A DNA stretch of 64,000 nucleotides from Brachyspira sp. G79 (GTDB lineage Bacteria; Spirochaetota; Brachyspiria; Brachyspirales; Brachyspiraceae): NCBI RefSeq assembly GCF_002379365.1, contig NZ_JQIU01000008.1, positions 2,031,816-2,095,815 of the forward strand. Reading direction: 5' to 3'. Positions 4,543-60,688 of this stretch are shown piece by piece. The notes under the pieces were generated by a model. That model worked only from the letters and a program-made list of their open reading frames with translations, did no database searches and had not been told where the DNA came from. Position numbers and translations under genes: made by a program. Numbering within the stretch: position 1 is the first letter of the stretch; every line of letters starts with the position of its first letter.

Positions 4543-4716
4543 TATATACTGGAACACTTTTATTTTGTCAATTGATGCACTTTATACATAATTATCAACT
4601 TTTTTGCCGCACATGCCACAGACGGACAGGCGTCATAAAAGAACTGTGGTGTGCCCCCCAATATCAAAAATTACAAAATTAATTTTTTGACAAACTATAG
4701 GTTGTTTAGGTATATA
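4543..4716 (+). repeat. Intergenic repeat family B, copy 1 (outward promoter-like ends)
   Basis: The left end carries, on the minus strand, TTGACA, a 17-base spacer and TATATA, and points at the 3810-4298 lipoprotein. The right end on the plus strand is TTGACA (4687-4692), an 18-base spacer and TATATA (4711-4716). It abuts the stop codon of the 4717-5286 gene and points antisense into it. The interior has a GC-rich island (CCGCACATGCCACAGACGG...) that is out of keeping with the AT-rich surroundings. It accounts for most of the gap between the two lipoprotein genes not explained by the duplicated leader. Confidence 0.65.
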
Positions 4717-6399: not shown

Positions 6400-6765
6400 G
6401 CAGCAGGCATTGAAAATTTAAATTATGCTTTGGGTGGGTGCTGCTTTTGTAGTGAATACTTAAAAGATTTAATTAAAACCTATTAAAAAACAAAGTCTTT
6501 AAAAATCTAAAAGGGCGGGCATTAAAATAAAGTTTTAAAATTTATTCTAATTCCCACCCTTTAAATTTTTTAATTCTATTTGTTATTTATAGCTTATTTT
6601 TCTATTTTTACTTTAACTGTTATTCTGGCTACCCACCCAAGATTTTTTTAAATTTACAATACTCTTTAACGCACGTTTAATCGATTATTATAAGCTACAA
6701 AAATTGTAATTATAAATTAAACCATATTTTTTAAATTCGTTCTGCGTGCGTAGAGTAAAATATAA
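6400..6765. repeat. Intergenic repeat family A, copy 1
   Basis: Within the 575-base convergent gap 6332-6906. The core is GGGCGGGC (6513-6520), an AT-rich centre containing TTTTAAAA, then TCCCACCC (6552-6559). A further block CTACCCACCCAAG lies near 6629, a GGGTGGGT block near 6432, and the paired AACGCACGTT (near 6668) and CTGCGTGCG (near 6742) blocks follow. The order of blocks matches the copies near 24200, 27300 and 35200. No reading frame is conserved. Beyond it, 6780-6900 holds GGTGGGAATA, a degenerate further piece. Confidence 0.65.
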
Positions 6766-6906
6766 ATTAAAATCAGACTTTGGGTGTTGTACCTTTCGAA
6801 GTTCAGTCTTGTCAATTTAATAAAAATTCTATAAAAAAATAAAAACATTTAAATCTTAAAGGTGGGAATACAGAATTATTTAAAATTATATTTTATAGAA
6901 AGCTAT

Positions 6907-11109: not shown

Positions 11110-11315
11110 TATATAACTAAACAAATAAAGTTTGTCATAAAATTAGTTCTTTAAATTTGGATATTTGTAAAAGGCTTTGCCCAACTCTGCATGCTGACGA
11201 ACTACACATAGTGAAGCGTACTCGAATGATAAAAACTTTGGCAAAGCTGCATCAAAAAAATTGATAATTCTATATAAATTGCATCAGTTGACAAAATAAA
11301 ATTTGTATATATAAA
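11110..11315 (-). repeat. Intergenic repeat family B, copy 2 (reverse orientation)
   Basis: Fills most of the gap 10987-11377. Read on the minus strand it begins TTGTCAACTGATGCA, passes through a GC-rich interior with GGCAAAGCC, and ends ATGACA, 17 bases, TATATA (11110-11138). The opposite end on the plus strand is TTGACA (11288-11293), 16 bases, TATAAA (11310-11315), pointing at the arylsulfotransferase stop codon. It aligns block for block with the copy at 60311-60675. Confidence 0.6.
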
Positions 11316-13062: not shown

Positions 13063-13078
13063 CCCGCCCGCCCACCCC
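13063..13078 (-). other. Perfect G-quadruplex motif on the minus strand
   Basis: The plus strand reads CCCGCCCGCCCACCCC, so the minus strand has four runs of three to four G separated by single bases. Short loops of this kind predict a very stable quadruplex. It lies in the divergent gap between the arylsulfotransferase start (12958) and metN (13243), 105 bases upstream of the arylsulfotransferase gene and on its coding strand. Confidence 0.7.
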
Positions 13079-16038: not shown

Positions 16039-16836
16039 ATGAAAAATATAATTATATTTTTGAGCATGATATTTTTCGTTTCATGCTCATCTGGTAATAA
16101 GAATGAAAATGTTGTTAAGGTTGGGTATATAGGAGAGTCTGACAGAGTTATTTGGGAAGAGGTTATGAGACAGGTTTCTAATGATAATATAAAAATAGAG
16201 CTTGTATCATTCGGTGATTATCTGCTTCCTAATCAGGCTTTAAATGACGGTGATATAGATATGAATAATTTTCAGCATTATGCTTTCTTTAACAATGAAG
16301 TAGAAACTAAAGGATATAAATTAACTGCTATAGCCGATACTTGTCTTGCTGCTATGAATATATATTCTGACAATATAACAAATGTTAATGAAGTAAAAGA
16401 AAATGATAAAATAGCAATACCTAATGACCCTTCAAACGGAGGAAGAGCTTTAAAAGTTTTAGAGGCTGCTGGTCTTATAAAATTAAGAGATAAGAATATA
16501 GCAAATCCAGTATTAAATGATATATCAGAAAATAAACTTAATTTGGATATAATAGAAGTTGATGCAGGAAGTATATACAGTCTTCTTCCAGATGTTGCAT
16601 GTGCTGTTATTAACTGTAATTTTGCTCTAAACTTCGGACTTAATCCAGACAAAGATTCTATATATAAAGATAATCCTACAAACTACGCTGATAAAAACTA
16701 TATAAACCTTATAGCTGTAAGAGAAGAAGATAAAGATAATGAAATATATAAAAAAATAGTGAATGCTTATCAGTCAGATGAGGTTAAAGAAATTTACAGT
16801 AATGACTTTAAGGGAGCTTATATAGCTGTTTGGTAA
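16039..16836 (+). CDS. metQ: Methionine-binding lipoprotein MetQ, copy 1
   Basis: 265 residues. The lipoprotein signal ends FFVSC. The NlpA/MetQ fold is marked by VGYIGESDRVIW, LNDGDIDMNNFQHYAFF, AIPNDPSNGGRALKVLEAAGLI and DVACAVINCNFAL. It captures methionine for MetNI at the outer face of the inner membrane. A GGAG lies 10 bases ahead of the ATG. It is the first of five tandem metQ copies and is intact. Confidence 0.92.
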   Translation: MKNIIIFLSMIFFVSCSSGNKNENVVKVGYIGESDRVIWEEVMRQVSNDNIKIELVSFGDYLLPNQALNDGDIDMNNFQHYAFFNNEVETKGYKLTAIADTCLAAMNIYSDNITNVNEVKENDKIAIPNDPSNGGRALKVLEAAGLIKLRDKNIANPVLNDISENKLNLDIIEVDAGSIYSLLPDVACAVINCNFALNFGLNPDKDSIYKDNPTNYADKNYINLIAVREEDKDNEIYKKIVNAYQSDEVKEIYSNDFKGAYIAVW

Positions 16837-16860
16837 TGTTTTTAATGAATATAGTTTTTT

Positions 16861-17656
16861 ATGATGAAGAAATTTTTTATATTTTTTTATTAATAATCAT
16901 ATCATATTCATGCAGCTCAAGCAATAAGGCAGAAATTATAAAGATAGGGCATATAGGTGAGTTTGATTCAGATATATGGGGTCAGATAAATAAAGAGATC
17001 GAACAGGATAATTGTAAATTAGATATTGTTTATTTTAATGATTATGAACTTCTAAACAAGGCTTTAAATGATGGTGATATTGATTTGAATGCTTTTCAGA
17101 ATTATATTTATTTTGTAAATGAAACGAATGAGCATAATTATAAACTTTCTATTTTGGAGAGAACTTTTGTAGCACCTATGCATATATATTCAAAGAATTT
17201 TACAAATATAAATCAAATACATTCAAATTCTAAAATAGCTATTCCTATTGATAGAGTAAATTTATCTAGGTCTTTGCAGATATTAGAAGAGGCAGGTTTA
17301 ATTAAATTAGAAAGACACAATAATAACTTTTATTCTTTAAGCAATATATCTGAAAATAATTTAAACTTGGAAATTATACCTATGGAAGCAAGTATAATAT
17401 ATTATAATCTGGATAAAATAGATGCAGCAATAGTTAATTATAGATTTATCACCGATTATCATAATTATAATATTATATATTATGATGATGTAACAAAATA
17501 TTCACCTCAGGGACAAAAGGCATATGTTAATTTAATTGTATGCCGTGAAAAAGATAAATCGTATAATATTTATAATTTTATAGCCGTAAGCTATAAACAA
17601 AAATTAAATCTAAAATAGAAGAAAATAAATTAAAAGGGCTTATCGTTATTGATTAA
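16861..17656 (+). pseudogene. MetQ copy 2, broken by two single-base frameshifts
   Basis: The open frame 16830-17618 encodes a MetQ-like protein, but its N terminus lacks a signal peptide (MNIVFYDEEIF...). Reading from the ATG at 16861 gives MMKKFFIFF, a normal lipoprotein start, until a stop after the T7 run at 16882-16888. One extra T would join it to LLIIISYSCSSS, a complete signal peptide and lipobox. At the other end the frame stops at 17618. One extra base near 17600 (an A5 run) would continue to KIEENKLKGLIVID, ending at 17656. With both corrections the length is 265 residues, equal to MetQ1. It also keeps IDLNAFQNY and DAAIVNYRF but lacks the AIPNDPSNGG consensus (AIPIDRVNLSR), so its ligand may differ. 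Confidence 0.75.
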
Positions 17657-17673
17657 TAATTGAGGAGCAAAAA

Positions 17674-18470
17674 ATGAATAATAAAATATTAAAAATAATA
17701 ATATTACTATTTCTGATTATTTCATGCACTAAAGAAAATAAAAAATATATTACTGTAAAGCTAGGATGCATAGGAGAGCTTGATACTTATGTATTAGAAT
17801 CATTAAAAGGAAAATTAGAAAAAGAAAATATAATTTTAGATTTGATAACTTTTTCAGATTACAGTGTATTAAATAAGGCTTTAGTAAGCAAGGCAATAGA
17901 CTTAAATCATTTTCAGCATTATGCTTATTTTGCAAATGAAACAAATAAAAACGACTACTACTTATCTATTATAGCAAAAACATTTATAGCTGATATGAAT
18001 ATGTATTCGGATAATCTTACCAATATAGGACAAATAGGATTAAAATCTAAAATAGCAGTGCCTGAAGATGATATAAATCTCTCAAGAGCACTTAAAATAT
18101 TGGATTCTATAGGTTTTATACGACTAAAAAAAACAATAATAAAAATTATAATTACACATTTGATGATGTAAGAGAAAACTATTTACTGCTTGAGTTTGTA
18201 CCTATAAAATCAAGCGATATGCATTCTATTATGTCAAAAGTTGATGCAGCTATTGTAAATTATCATTTCAATTTTGATTTTAGAAACAGCAATATTATAT
18301 ACAAAGATGATCCAAGTAAATATCAGTCTGACATGTATGTTAATGTGGTGGCAGCAAGGCTTGAAGATGAAAATAATATAACTTATAAAACTATAGCAAA
18401 TCTTTATAAGGAAAAAGTATTAGAGCTTATAAATTCAGGTAAAATAGAAAGCATTACGATGATTGATTAA
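17674..18470 (+). pseudogene. MetQ copy 3, frameshifted in a poly-A run
   Basis: The first part (17674-18171) starts with a good lipoprotein signal (LLFLIISC) after a GAGGAG ribosome binding site, and has VKLGCIGELDTYV and IDLNHFQHYAYF. At the A8 run 18126-18133 the frame is lost and stops at 18171. One extra A restores KKNNNKNYNYTFDDVRENYL, which runs into the downstream frame that contains DAAIVNYHF and ends at 18470. The repaired product would be 265 residues. Like copy 2 it has AVPEDDINLSR instead of the canonical NDPSNGGR loop, so copies 2 and 3 are sister paralogues. Confidence 0.75.
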
Positions 18471-18505
18471 TATGCATTAAAAGTATATACTGAAGATATT
18501 TCTTA

Positions 18506-18537
18506 GAAATAATTAATTTAAATATATTAATTATTTC
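18506..18537. other. Perfect 11 bp inverted repeat between metQ3 and metQ4
   Basis: GAAATAATTAA (18506-18516) is matched by TTAATTATTTC (18527-18537) around a 10-base centre. It lies 36 bases ahead of the metQ4 start and could act as a weak terminator, an operator or an mRNA hairpin. It is not followed by a T run, so intrinsic termination is doubtful. Confidence 0.4.
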
Positions 18538-18572
18538 AATTATAAACTATAAATTTATTTTAAGGAGAAAAA

Positions 18573-19373
18573 ATGAAAAAGATTTTATTATTGTTTATAA
18601 CATTCATAATACTATCATGCGGCACTAATAATCAAAAAGGTACTGTAGTAAAAATAGGACATGTAGGAGAATCTGACAGAATCACTTGGAAGCCTGTTAT
18701 TGAAAAGTTGTCCAAAGAGGGTATAACTGTAGAATTAGTATCATTTTCTGACTATACTTTGCCAAATCAGGCTTTAAATGACGGCGAAATAGATTTAAAT
18801 GCTTTTCAGCACTTTGCTTATTTTAATAATGAACTAGCATCAAGAAATTATGATCTTACGGCAATAGGAACTACATTTATATCATCTATGAATATATATT
18901 CAAAAAATATTACAAATGTAAGCGAGCTTAAAAATAATGATAAAATAGCAATACCTAATGATCCTGCAAACGGCGGAAGGGCTTTAAAAGTTTTGGAAGC
19001 AGCTGGTGTAATTAAAGTAAACCCAGAAGCAGGAGATTCTCCAAGCATTGATGATATAACAGAAAATCCTCTTAATATAGAATTAGTAGAAGTGGATGCA
19101 GGAAGTTTATACAGTCTTCTTCCAGATGTTGCTTGTGCTGTTATAAACGGAAACTATGCTATTGACTTCGGACTTAATCCAGGAAGTGATTATATATTTA
19201 AAGATGACCCTTCTATATATACTGGGAACTCTTTTTATAATTTGATAGCAGCTAGAACTAAAGATAAAGATAATGAAATATATAAAAAAATAGTAGAAGC
19301 ATATCAGTCTCCTGAAGTAGAGAAAGTATATGCAGAAGATTTTAAAGGGGCATACTTGCCTACTTGGAAATAA
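18573..19373 (+). CDS. metQ: Methionine-binding lipoprotein MetQ, copy 4
   Basis: 266 residues, intact. The signal peptide ends IILSC. It has VGESDRITW, LNDGEIDLNAFQHF, AIPNDPANGGRALKVLEAAGVI and DVACAVINGNYAIDFGLNPG, all canonical for the MetQ/NlpA family. AAGGAG lies 7 bases ahead of the ATG. It resembles copies 1 and 5 more than the frameshifted copies 2 and 3. A long hairpin follows, so it may have its own transcript end. Confidence 0.92.
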   Translation: MKKILLLFITFIILSCGTNNQKGTVVKIGHVGESDRITWKPVIEKLSKEGITVELVSFSDYTLPNQALNDGEIDLNAFQHFAYFNNELASRNYDLTAIGTTFISSMNIYSKNITNVSELKNNDKIAIPNDPANGGRALKVLEAAGVIKVNPEAGDSPSIDDITENPLNIELVEVDAGSLYSLLPDVACAVINGNYAIDFGLNPGSDYIFKDDPSIYTGNSFYNLIAARTKDKDNEIYKKIVEAYQSPEVEKVYAEDFKGAYLPTWK

Positions 19374-19402
19374 TTTTATTTTAATAATAATTTATTATGT
19401 AT

Positions 19403-19462
19403 TAGACTTACTGCAAAAATAACTATAAATTGATAAATATTTATAGTTTTGCAGCAAGTCTA
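19403..19462 (+). terminator. Long hairpin after metQ4
   Basis: TAGACTTACTGCAAAAATAA at the left pairs with TTTTGCAGCAAGTCTA at the right over more than 20 bases with few mismatches, including ACTATAAAT/ATTTATAGT. T-rich sequence follows (TTTATTTATTATT). It fits a terminator or processing hairpin that separates metQ4 from metQ5. Confidence 0.6.
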
Positions 19463-19540
19463 TTTATTTATTATTGAAATTATTATAAAAATAATATAAT
19501 CTAATGTGAAATTAATACATAATAAAAGGAGAAAATAAAT

Positions 19541-20350
19541 ATGAAAAAGATTTTATTATTAATATTGTCTATGACATTTATAATATTATCATGCCAAGGC
19601 TCAAAAACAGATGCAAACAAAACTGTAAAGGTTGGATTTGCAGGAGAATCTGATTATCAAATTTGGAATCCAATAGTAGAAAAATTGGCAGAAGAGGGTA
19701 TCACTGTAGAATTAGTATCATTTTCTGACTATACTATACCTAATCAGGCTTTAAATGATGGCGAAATAGACTTGAACGCTTTTCAGCATTATGCATACTT
19801 TAATGATGAAGTGTCAAATAAAAAATACAATATCACAGCTATAGCTGATACTTATATATCTGCTATGAATATTTATTCTACCAATATTACAGATGTAAGT
19901 CAAGTAAAAAACGGCGATAAAATAGCTATACCTAATGATCCTTCTAATGGAGGAAGAGCTTTAAAAGTTCTTCAGGCCGCAGGACTTATTAAAGTAAAAC
20001 CAGAAGCAGGAGATACTCCATCTGTAAGCGATATAATAGAAAATCCTCTTAATCTTCAAATAATAGAAATGGATGCTGGTGCTATTTACGGAGTACTTCC
20101 AGATGTTGCTTGTGCTGTTATAAATGGAAACTATGCTATTGACTTTGGGCTTAATCCGGGAAAAGACTATATATTTAAAGATGATCCTTCTATTTACAGT
20201 GGTAAATCTTTTGTAAACTTAATTGCTGCTAGAACTAAAGATAAAGACAATGAACTATACAAAAAAGTTGTAGAAACTTATCAATCTGATATAGTAGAGA
20301 AAGTTTATAATGAAAACTTCTTAGGTTCTTATCTTCCTACTTGGAAATAA
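19541..20350 (+). CDS. metQ: Methionine-binding lipoprotein MetQ, copy 5
   Basis: 269 residues, intact. The signal peptide ends IILSC. The canonical NlpA/MetQ segments are present: FAGESDYQIW, LNDGEIDLNAFQHY, AIPNDPSNGGRALKVLQAAGLI and DVACAVINGNYAIDFGLNPG. An AAAGGAG ribosome binding site precedes the ATG. It is closest to copy 4. It is the last gene of the methionine cluster and is followed by a strong intrinsic terminator. Confidence 0.92.
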   Translation: MKKILLLILSMTFIILSCQGSKTDANKTVKVGFAGESDYQIWNPIVEKLAEEGITVELVSFSDYTIPNQALNDGEIDLNAFQHYAYFNDEVSNKKYNITAIADTYISAMNIYSTNITDVSQVKNGDKIAIPNDPSNGGRALKVLQAAGLIKVKPEAGDTPSVSDIIENPLNLQIIEMDAGAIYGVLPDVACAVINGNYAIDFGLNPGKDYIFKDDPSIYSGKSFVNLIAARTKDKDNELYKKVVETYQSDIVEKVYNENFLGSYLPTWK

Positions 20351-24199: not shown

Positions 24200-24566
24200 T
24201 ATTTTAACTCCCACCCTTTTAGATTTAAAAGTTTTATTTTTTATATGCACTTTAATTAAATTCATAAGTATATACTTTAAAAAGCACACCCGCCCAAAGT
24301 GTGATTTAAATTTGCAGTTTACTCTACGCACGGAGCATGGAACATTTATATATAATAAGAATTAGAATTAATAATAACTTTATATTTAATAATCGATTAA
24401 ACGTGCGTTGCAGAGCATTACAAAATTTAAATAACGCTTGGGTGGGTAGCCATAGTAACACTTAAAGCTAAAAAATTAAAAAGCATCTATAAATAACAGG
24501 CAGCATTCAAAAATTTAAAGGGTGGGAATTAGAATAAATTTTTAAACTTTAATCCGCACCCTTTAT
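24200..24566. repeat. Intergenic repeat family A, copy 2
   Basis: Fills most of the gap 24113-24580. In order: CTCCCACCC (near 24209), CACACCCGCCC, TACGCACGG (near 24325), then the mirror half with AAACGTGCG (near 24410), CTTGGGTGGGTAGCC and the core GGGTGGGA (24520-24527) facing TCCGCACCC (24553-24561). The order here is left arm then right arm, joined at the ACGCACG side. In copies 3 and 4 the arms are joined at the GGGTGGG side. Confidence 0.65.
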
Positions 24567-27295: not shown

Positions 27296-27680
27296 TAAAA
27301 TCTATTAAACGTGTGACGAAGAATATTATAGATTTAAATAATGCTTGGGTGGGTAGCCAGAATAAAACAGTTAAAGTAAAAATATAGAAAAATAGTTAAA
27401 ATACCAATAAAATGTTTAAAAATTTAACGGGTGGGAGTGAAAATAGATTTTAAAATTTATTCTAATTCCCACCCTTTTAGATTTTAAGGCTTTATTTTTT
27501 AATAGATTTTAATTAAATATATAAGTCTATATTTTTACAAGTACGCCCTCCCAAAGTGTTATTTAAATTTAAGACTTTACTCAGCGCACGCAGAACGGAT
27601 TTTTACATATAAGATTAATTTGATAACTGTAATTTTTATTATCTATAAGAATTTCATTCTACGTGCGTTAATAAATATTA
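27296..27680. repeat. Intergenic repeat family A, copy 3
   Basis: CTTGGGTGGGTAGCC near 27343, core GGGTGGGA (27429-27436) and TCCCACCC (27467-27474) around TTTTAAAA, CGCCCTCCCAAAG near 27544, AGCGCACGCAGAAC near 27574 and CTACGTGCGTTA near 27659. With the element at 27096 it fills the divergent gap; the last about 110 bases before 27800 are AT-rich and probably hold the promoter of the DUF4234 gene. Confidence 0.65.
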
Positions 27681-29601: not shown

Positions 29602-29669
29602 ATAAGTATAATTTTAATAATTTATTCTTTAGAATATCAAGCAGTTTATTTATAAAGTTGAATAAAAAA

Positions 29670-29698
29670 TTGACAAACTGTATTTGTTTAGGTATATA
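29670..29698 (+). repeat. Family B right end, isolated, promoter-like
   Basis: TTGACA (29670-29675), 17 bases, TATATA (29693-29698). It ends 6 bases short of the CapD-like gene stop codon (29705) and points antisense into that gene. No left end is visible, since a terminator occupies the space. Confidence 0.55.
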
Positions 29699-29704
29699 TT
29701 ATTT

Positions 29705-32221: not shown

Positions 32222-32521
32222 TATTTTTTAATAATTATTTTGTAAAAGAACTTATATCCTCGACAAGCTTGGATACGCTTCACGAAAGTGCAAGTGTTGA
32301 AATTATTATTAAATCGTACTAATTATATTTTATATGTAGGATAAATTACTAAATTTAGTATAAAATCTAGCCTTTCGCTGCCGAAGGCGTACTTCGTATG
32401 TGGCAATACCACAGGCACTTCCTACAGTCACAAAAGAAGTGTGGGCTGTGGGGCAAAGCCACGCAAATATTTTAAATTTAAAAAATTAATTTTTGACAAA
32501 TTATATTTGTTTAGGTATATA
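32222..32521 (+). repeat. Intergenic repeat family B, copy 3
   Basis: Shares with the copies near 39900 and 41430 a block of about 130 bases containing TATATCCTCGACAAGCT, GGATACGCTTC, GCAAGTGTTGAAATTATTAT and AAATCGTACTAATTAT. A GC-rich island with CACAAAAGAAGTGTGGGC follows. The right end is TTGACA (32493-32498), 17 bases, TATATA (32516-32521). The left end holds a weaker outward TTTACA motif facing the DUF4405 gene. It occupies most of the gap 32116-32643. Confidence 0.65.
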
Positions 32522-32562
32522 TCTTATGCTGTAATAATAATTATAAAATTTATTTTAAAAAC

Positions 32563-35189: not shown

Positions 35190-35525
35190 AACACTTCTTG
35201 GGTGGGCATACAGAATAAGAGTTAAAGCCAAAGAATAAAAAATCATTTGTAAATAAAAAATAATATTCAAAAATTTAGAGGGTGGGGATTAGAATATATT
35301 TTAAAATTTTACTTTAACCCCGCCCTTTTAGATTTAAAAGCTTTATTTTTTATATTGGCTTAATTAAATATAAAAATCTATACATCAAAAAGTGACCCCA
35401 CCCAAAAACATGATTTAAATTTAAGGCTTTCATAAACGCACGCAGAGTAGATTTTTTAATACAGATTGATTAACAAATCTAATTCATTTTATATATAAAA
35501 ATCGATTTAACGTGCGTTTAAGAAT
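35190..35525. repeat. Intergenic repeat family A, copy 4
   Basis: Lies in the divergent gap 34921-35666. Blocks in order: TTCTTGGGTGGGCAT near 35197, core GGGTGGGG (35280-35287) and CCCCGCCC (35318-35325) around TTTTAAAA, GACCCCACCC near 35394, AACGCACGCAGAG near 35434 and AACGTGCGTTTAAG near 35508. Block order matches copy 3. The rest of the gap is AT-rich and probably holds the promoters of copA and the methyltransferase. Confidence 0.65.
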
Positions 35526-38377: not shown

Positions 38378-38528
38378 TTTTTATGTTGTTCTTTTTCTCG
38401 CAGTACTTCCTTCGGTCGCAAAAGAACTGGGGTGTTACGAAGTACGCAGAGCGGCACGTCTGTGTGCCATCACAAATAATAAAATTTAAAAAACTAGAAT
38501 TGACAAAATATATTTGTTTAGGTATATA
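38349..38528 (+). repeat. Intergenic repeat family B, copy 4 (most compact)
   Basis: 180 bases with promoter-like motifs at both ends pointing outward: the ddl promoter on the left, and TTGACA (38500-38505), 17 bases, TATATA (38523-38528) on the right, next to the stop of the ankyrin gene. The interior is a GC-rich island with CTTCCTTCGGTCGC, CGAAGTACGCAGAGCGG and similar pieces. Confidence 0.7.
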
Positions 38529-38538
38529 TTAAAAAGTA

Positions 38539-60310: not shown

Positions 60311-60675
60311 TGAATTTTAATATATATTATTTCTGTCAACTGATTCACTTTATATAGAATGATCAATTTTTTACTGTAGCTTTACCAAAGTTTTTATTCT
60401 TTGGATACGCTTAACAAAAAACTCAATTACTGCTACTTTATATGCTAACAATTTGTATTAAAAGTATTGTAATATTTAAAATTTAGCACAAAAATGCAGT
60501 TTTTAACCTGCATACAGCCACAGAGAGGTGTAGCTACCAAAGGCGTACATATGCGGCATACAACGCTACTTCATTAGTTTGTAAAAAAACTGTGGTTTAG
60601 CAAGACTGTGAAACTACACAAATATACAAATTAAAAAAGTAATTTTTTGAAAAACTGTATTTATTTGGCTATAAA
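60311..60675 (+). repeat. Intergenic repeat family B, copy 7 (longest, diverged)
   Basis: Fills the gap between fabH and the next gene. The left end has TTGTCAACTGATTCACTTTA, as in the copies at 4566 and 11288, with a weak outward -10. In the interior are TTTGGATACGCTT, AAAGGCGTACATATGCGGC and AAAAACTGTGG. The right end is TTGAAA (60647-60652), 17 bases, TATAAA (60670-60675), facing the membrane protein stop codon. Confidence 0.6.
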
Positions 60676-60688
60676 CAATATAAATTAA

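Follow-up and report, generated by a model that had tools for sequence, protein, structure and literature searches.

The Ter macrodomain of E. coli is served by the matS/MatP system, in which matS is a single short palindrome found around the terminus, and parS, the site of the parS/ParB system, follows a consensus that is a 16-bp palindrome near TGTTTCACGTGAAACA. The repeat arrays described here, from the genus Brachyspira, resemble matS in forming many dispersed, intergenic-tolerant copies limited to one chromosomal domain, but differ in comprising two to five modules (up to 346 bp per unit) with heterotypic half-sites and in lying around the origin; rather than being confined to the terminus, they centre on the origin/parS side. 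With parS/ParB they share origin clustering and palindromic half-sites, yet parS is one 16-bp palindrome present two to five times per genome, whereas the arrays, which lack parS, extend across about 1 Mb and are limited to the genus, and their block motifs and spacing differ from the parS palindrome. A REP is a single hairpin of much smaller size, associated with Y1 (RAYT) transposases, and, to our knowledge, neither block order nor 75–78-bp modules nor origin bias is a feature of BIMEs. REP/BIME elements (PMC2817692) are like the arrays in forming mosaics of palindromic units that lie scattered between genes and alternate in orientation; the arrays do consist of dispersed units in alternating orientation at regular spacing. 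A REP/RAYT identity was rejected on the grounds that PF01797 occurs in none of 26 Brachyspira genomes (control rings, 5 of 14). The family was previously unnamed, and we found no published description of it in the literature searched, including the available parts of the Brachyspira genome papers (PMC3532143, PMC2897892, PMC3163572, PMC2650404 and PMC3035287).

The window (that is, the whole 64,000-nucleotide stretch of Brachyspira sp. G79 analysed here) lies within contig C8 (2,625,243 bp), one of the 14 contigs into which the 3.29-Mb genome is assembled. An earlier note, made from the letters of this stretch, had listed four copies of a repeat of about 350 bp; the blocks are present at all four places, although the family is far larger than four, one copy used as a query giving 46 BLAST matches in its own genome and 185 arm matches being found in one relative. 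In the window, GGGYGGG occurs 19 times counting either strand (0.83 expected) and ACGCACG seven times (0.21 expected), numbers that were reached in none of 100 shuffles in either case. The blocks pair into modules, defined by the start-to-start distance of their two blocks: A consists of GGGYGGG-78-GGGYGGG, its inverted form A' of CCCRCCC-78-CCCRCCC, and B of ACGCACG-75-CGTGCGT. In window coordinates, the four arrays read as follows.

6432 to 6519, plus strand: copy 1, module A; GGGTGGG at 6432, GGGCGGG at 6513
6553 to 6638, minus strand: copy 1, module A'; CCCACCC at 6553 and 6632, opposite module A over the TTTTAAAA centre
6669 to 6751, unstranded: copy 1, module B; ACGCACG at 6669, CGTGCGT at 6745
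6779 to 6870, plus strand: copy 1, degenerate further module A; TTTGGGTGTT ... AGGTGGGAAT, in register, read from the sequence
24210 to 24295, minus strand: copy 2, module A'; CCCACCC at 24210, CCCGCCC at 24289
24326 to 24408, unstranded: copy 2, module B; ACGCACG at 24326, CGTGCGT at 24402
24440 to 24526, plus strand: copy 2, module A; GGGTGGG at 24440 and 24520, then a degenerate facing block CCGCACCC at about 24553
27347 to 27435, plus strand: copy 3, module A; GGGTGGG at 27347 and 27429, preceded by a degenerate module B end, CGTGTGA, at about 27309
27468 to 27552, minus strand: copy 3, module A'; CCCACCC at 27468, degenerate CCCTCCC at 27546
27584 to 27668, unstranded: copy 3, module B; GCGCACG at 27584, CGTGCGT at 27662
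35200 to 35286, plus strand: copy 4, module A; GGGTGGG at 35200 and 35280
35319 to 35403, minus strand: copy 4, module A'; CCCGCCC at 35319, CCCACCC at 35397
35436 to 35517, unstranded: copy 4, module B; ACGCACG at 35436, CGTGCGT at 35511

The core postulated earlier, in which GGGYGGG and CCCRCCC face each other across TTTTAAAA, holds for copies 1, 3 and 4, but copy 2 (24200–24566) is in another phase: its order is CCC-CCC, ACGCACG-CGTGCGT, GGG-GGG (that is, an A'-B-A array), and its right end has no more than a degenerate core. Copy 1 extends to about 6870 through its degenerate additional module, and copy 3 has one base changed in ACGCACG (GCGCACG) as well as the outer CCCTCCC. The outer G/C blocks and the ACGCACG/CGTGCGT blocks are present as noted before, not as loose extras but as the edges of three ordered 80-bp modules. 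All 98 sampled arrays are intergenic, and the absence of a conserved reading frame was borne out, none of the 98 being overlapped by more than 60 bp by an open reading frame of at least 100 amino acids.

Several other features of the window were observed alongside the arrays. A promoter-like stretch, TTGACAAA...TATTTGTTTAGGTATATAT, is repeated upstream of several genes (29661–29699, 32484–32522, 38491–38529 and 60638–60676) and may be a shared regulated promoter. Another dispersed motif, an inverted repeat that contains TGTCAA and GATGCACTTTATA-like elements, lies at 4558–4611, 11248–11301 and 60331–60372 (87–90% complementary between sites); a lone CCCGCCCGCCCACCC run at 13063–13077 sits between open reading frames, outside any array; and tandem paralogous genes occupy 16039–20350, with 300-nt stretches that are 60–80% identical.

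The modules are strung in the order A, A', B, A and so on, with neighbouring block starts 42.5, 36.4 and 36.5 bp apart and a period of about 346 bp. In 101 chains from sampled stretches of G004, G009 and G007 and from the window, the linkers of which are diverged, the standard deviation was 0.8–1.2 bp for five spacings (75–78 bp and 36 bp) and 2.0 bp for the central one (60–105 instances each). Because chaining presupposed the module order, all 16 ordered block pairs were tested. Writing G for GGGYGGG, g for CCCRCCC, B for ACGCACG and b for CGTGCGT, the frequent pairs were GG (88), gg (74) and Bb (89) at 72–83 bp and bG (61), gB (59) and Gg (39) at 33–46 bp; the sole additional pair in either range was Bb at 33–46 bp (4). 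An array usually holds two to five modules and its starting module varies, with ggBbGG (18), GGggBb (13) and BbGGgg (6) among the 101 chains. In relatives, tandem units lie 344–347 bp apart, and tandem runs with a two-module period of about 232–233 bp, an exception to the three-module order, were seen at G011:C1:2494147-2495518, G014:C3:280612-280930 and G016:C2:803775-804281. A CRISPR array was rejected as an identity, given that the conserved units are 7-bp blocks in both orientations and the linkers are homologous between copies, not unique.

The linkers carry a rhythm of their own. In loci of G004, G007, G009, G000 and G010, A and T recur in B-module linkers with a period of about 5.9 bp in four genome sets (P 0.000–0.013 by permutation of 5-bp blocks, 300 permutations per set); the rhythm of A-module linkers is weaker or shifted, at 6.1–6.2 bp in two sets and 6.4–6.5 bp in G000 and G010. 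Ordinary intergenic windows (n = 1,615) show no A/T peak near 6 bp. Phased A-tracts were considered and set aside, as the linkers hold no 10.5-bp signal and the 6-bp rhythm is seen instead.

Orthologous copies allow the constraint on these parts to be compared. Between G004 and G005 (about 4% coding divergence), 1 of 273 core block bases had changed in eight orthologous arrays, as against 155 of 2,109 linker bases (p = 1e-7); the corresponding changes were 132 of 1,653 in flanking intergenic DNA and 709 of 16,924 in coding DNA. These eight were drawn from 11 aligned loci (20 fetched); two others had no aligned module and one, with a linker divergence of 0.22 and core changes at 2 of 36 bases, was excluded. 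The variable Y of GGGYGGG is transition-prone, having changed in 8 of 32 blocks, and was kept heterotypic across the dyad. Linkers had fewer indel events than the intergenic flanks (13 per 2,109 vs 25 per 1,653; p = 0.008). The direction was the same for G009/G007 (core changes 0 of 48 vs linkers 46 of 357, in one alignment) and for G010/G000 (3 of 78 vs 98 of 617, in two alignments that share one query locus). A linker divergence of at least 0.18 led to the dropping of six of eight G010/G000 pairs and one of two G009/G007 pairs, and as several of the dropped distant pairs had block changes (up to six in one), the distant-pair test is weak. As judged by these sequence comparisons, the blocks and spacing of individual array copies are constrained and most linker bases are free.

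The two halves of the core are not alike. In 113 of 117 cores, the facing blocks of the central dyad have T at one Y position and C at the other; four cores are TT and none is CC, although 27 CC cores would be expected if the halves were independent. The cores come from G002 (9), G004 (40), G007 (27) and G009 (41), 71 of them having been processed by script; outside this count, 26 listed cores of G005 were, by eye, 23 CT, three TT and no CC, and 11 cores of the source genome were seven CT, three TT and one other. In B modules (n = 122), CA-type ends stand opposite GT in 49 cases and opposite CA in none, with about nine expected. An aim of pairing would favour CC and TT (giving C-G and U-A pairs), both of which are avoided, and this speaks against base pairing. 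Two distinct protein contacts, or a single asymmetric complex, would suit the half-site data better.

The earlier note had proposed either a folded RNA or a protein-binding array. For the first, the energies are suggestive in that, for either strand of all 14 tested units, the folding energy is below the mean of the shuffles (z −0.8 to −7.0), and the central GGGUGGG/CCCGCCC would form a G-U wobble on one strand; the low energy is unspecific, however, as inverted GC-rich blocks alone would produce it. RNAalifold on 38 diverged copies placed 15 pairs, nearly all within the GC blocks, with a covariation term of −0.19, and the compensatory changes that the note had suggested seeking were found at none of the 15. 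The linkers are unpaired, the variable position avoids Watson–Crick combinations instead of tolerating them, and Rfam 15 at the gathering threshold gave no match anywhere in the window. A structured non-coding RNA or 3' UTR element is therefore very unlikely in our view, whereas the protein-binding half of the proposal gains indirect support from block selection, rigid spacing and heterotypic half-sites. Lower still we place a hairpin or cruciform site acting as single-stranded DNA, in which the fixed T-G or C-A mismatch would set the choice of strand for a recombinase or nuclease: the T and C half-sites of the 113 cores and the dyad symmetry fit such a site, but two proteins reading two half-sites account for the same data, the stems are poorly paired outside the blocks, and an enzyme of the IS200/IS605 type was not found among the 26 genomes (PF01797).

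The family is widespread in the genus. A strict pattern for the core matched in 23 of 26 Brachyspira genomes (its reversed control had no match), and a strict pattern for the B-to-A junction matched in the same 23 and, outside the genus, in 1 of 366 Spirochaetota genomes with a single match; the control for the junction pattern had three matches in three genomes. Neither pattern, from which decayed copies would escape, matched in G001, G003 and G019, so the arrays are not essential to Brachyspira. Copy number differs greatly between species. One 361-bp query had no match in phage and plasmid records, and a prophage or plasmid origin was rejected: the 95 block-pair matches in viral contigs are of chance kind, the contigs being richer in G+C (lowest GC 0.377), and the one viral contig with two block pairs at 72–83 bp has a GC of 0.64; none of the 95 holds an A+T-rich array.

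In four genomes of 3.0–3.3 Mb the arrays are centred on the origin. Their circular mean lies −50 kb from parS in G009 (41 cores; Rayleigh p = 1e-8), −13 kb in G007 (27 cores; p = 8e-8), +12 kb in G004 (84 collapsed plus-strand arms; p = 7e-14) and +69 kb in G010 (38 arrays; p = 8e-9). Density in the nearest quarter exceeds that in the far half 10-fold, 21-fold, 8-fold and 26-fold, respectively, and the two eighths most distant from parS hold 2 of 41, 0 of 27, 2 of 84 and 1 of 38 arrays. One genome paper (PMC3163572) gives the Brachyspira origin as defined by skew, without linkage to dnaA. GC3 skew, corrected for gene strand, changes sign from minus to plus close to position 0 in both G009 and G007 and at 1.5–1.7 Mb in G004, and the parS-like sites (14.7–16 kb in G009, 3.038 Mb in G007, 1.676 Mb in G004 and 1.593 Mb in G010) agree with the skew origins; G009, G007 and G004 have further, weaker parS matches with two mismatches elsewhere. 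In the draft genome that holds the window, 26 of the 27 arrays on C8 lie within 610 kb of parS (2.254 Mb), and a few more are on the separate contigs C7 and C9. The centring does not stem from a surplus of intergenic DNA, as there are 5.1 arrays per 10 kb of intergenic DNA near parS and 0.8 far from it (24 arrays in 15 stretches near, 7 in 30 far; Fisher p = 7e-5). We found no consistent T-first or C-first bias by replichore in the core list as read by eye.

Some candidates could be discarded at this point. A terminus element, suggested by the density in G004, was rejected because skew and parS place the peak at the origin, and tmRNA was dropped as an origin marker because it is far from the skew switch. 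parS occurs as separate sites in all six genomes searched (two to five per genome), and ParB is present in all eight genomes tested, including three array-free ones; ParB was rejected as the array binder, being there with or without arrays. The ParB gene itself lies 0.8–0.9 Mb from parS and the skew origin (G004 C1:844961, G007 C1:2230938 and G009 C2:2416972).

Placement relative to genes suggests a different role, that of a local regulatory or insulating element that separates transcription units at gene ends. Gaps between convergent genes hold more than their share of arrays (36 of 90, compared with 62 of 289 among all gaps of at least 300 bp, a set that includes gaps lengthened by the arrays themselves), and many are only tens of bp away from a stop codon. 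Against this, 16 of 90 arrays, among them two of the window's four, stand between divergent genes, avoidance of promoters would give an equal bias, and the centring on the origin is left unexplained, so that we consider insulation doubtful.

A mobile or selfish repeat of MITE- or satellite-like kind, the movement of which favours the origin (for example, through extra template or a tethered recombinase) and the blocks of which are sites for its machinery, is a possibility of somewhat greater weight, though still an unlikely one. Bacterial MITEs and satellite repeats are likewise short, dispersed, sometimes tandem and non-coding, and the dispersed copies, the tandem repeats of 344–347 bp, the variable start phases and the large differences in copy number between species would all fit. 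So would the patchy presence at single sites and the coincidence of array borders with breaks in synteny. With the protein of the neighbouring AMP-binding gene as a query, we obtained 14 loci (13 from Brachyspira, the closest from B. innocens at 96%, and a distant one from Bacteroidales). Of the 13 from Brachyspira, five (B. innocens, B. hampsonii and three others) have an A'-B-A array at the 3' end of this gene; it is absent from the remaining eight, among them both B. pilosicoli loci. The gene past the array varies among species, which places the arrays at synteny breaks; it also differs between filled and unfilled sites, leaving no clean empty site for a comparison of target duplications. 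Several observations weigh the other way. Arrays start at differing modules and so lack fixed ends; in place of fixed terminal inverted repeats around one defined unit, at least three start phases were found, and, in a further departure from MITEs and satellites, phases are permuted and the 7-bp blocks are under purifying selection in individual copies. Retention of block bases in orthologous copies while linkers drift is not predicted by selection on mobility alone, Y1 transposases of the REP/RAYT type are absent from all 26 genomes, and the 8–26-fold density near parS is steeper than gene dosage would lead one to expect.

On sequence grounds, what characterizes the family is its ordered two-block modules, the selection on blocks and spacings, the differing half-sites and the density around parS and the origin in high-copy genomes. 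We tentatively suggest, with slightly less than even confidence, that the arrays are putative binding sites for a sequence-specific protein that organizes or marks the origin-proximal domain. A role in organizing or marking the domain explains the data most economically, and we place it before an origin-preferring mobile repeat, even if we hold it provisionally. Both the function of the arrays and their protein are inferred. An array would be a cis-acting DNA site for a candidate DNA-binding protein, or protein pair, of Brachyspira, which would touch the paired blocks of one module, bend or loop the A+T-rich DNA between them and bridge neighbouring modules and arrays. Dozens of arrays within the origin-proximal 0.8–1.2 Mb could in this way mark or compact the domain, comparable to matS at the E. 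coli terminus, although at the opposite end of the chromosome's replication and with a site of far greater size. Speaking against such a role, the clustering in the low-copy genome G011 is not significant (33 arrays; p = 0.24; bins of 8, 6, 2, 3, 5, 3, 3 and 3; mean −25 kb from parS), arrays are patchily retained at one site, and the canonical ParB and parS, an existing origin-marking system, occur as well.

A more specific form of the domain-organizing proposal, which we regard as plausible at best and less secure than the general one, is that these are genus-specific, origin-centred modular nucleoprotein arrays served by two proteins or an asymmetric complex, a counterpart of the terminus-organizing matS system in which the linkers have their own 6-bp A/T rhythm. 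Few sequence families that mark one chromosomal domain are well defined, and a genus-restricted, parS-centred family offers a tractable route to the organization of the origin region in spirochaetes. It is unusual for bacterial DNA sites to have heterotypic half-sites, a fixed order and a 6-bp rhythm, and these features point to a DNA-binding complex that is uncharacterized. X-shaped rearrangements of Brachyspira genomes are known, and arrays that lie at synteny breaks may help to shape them.
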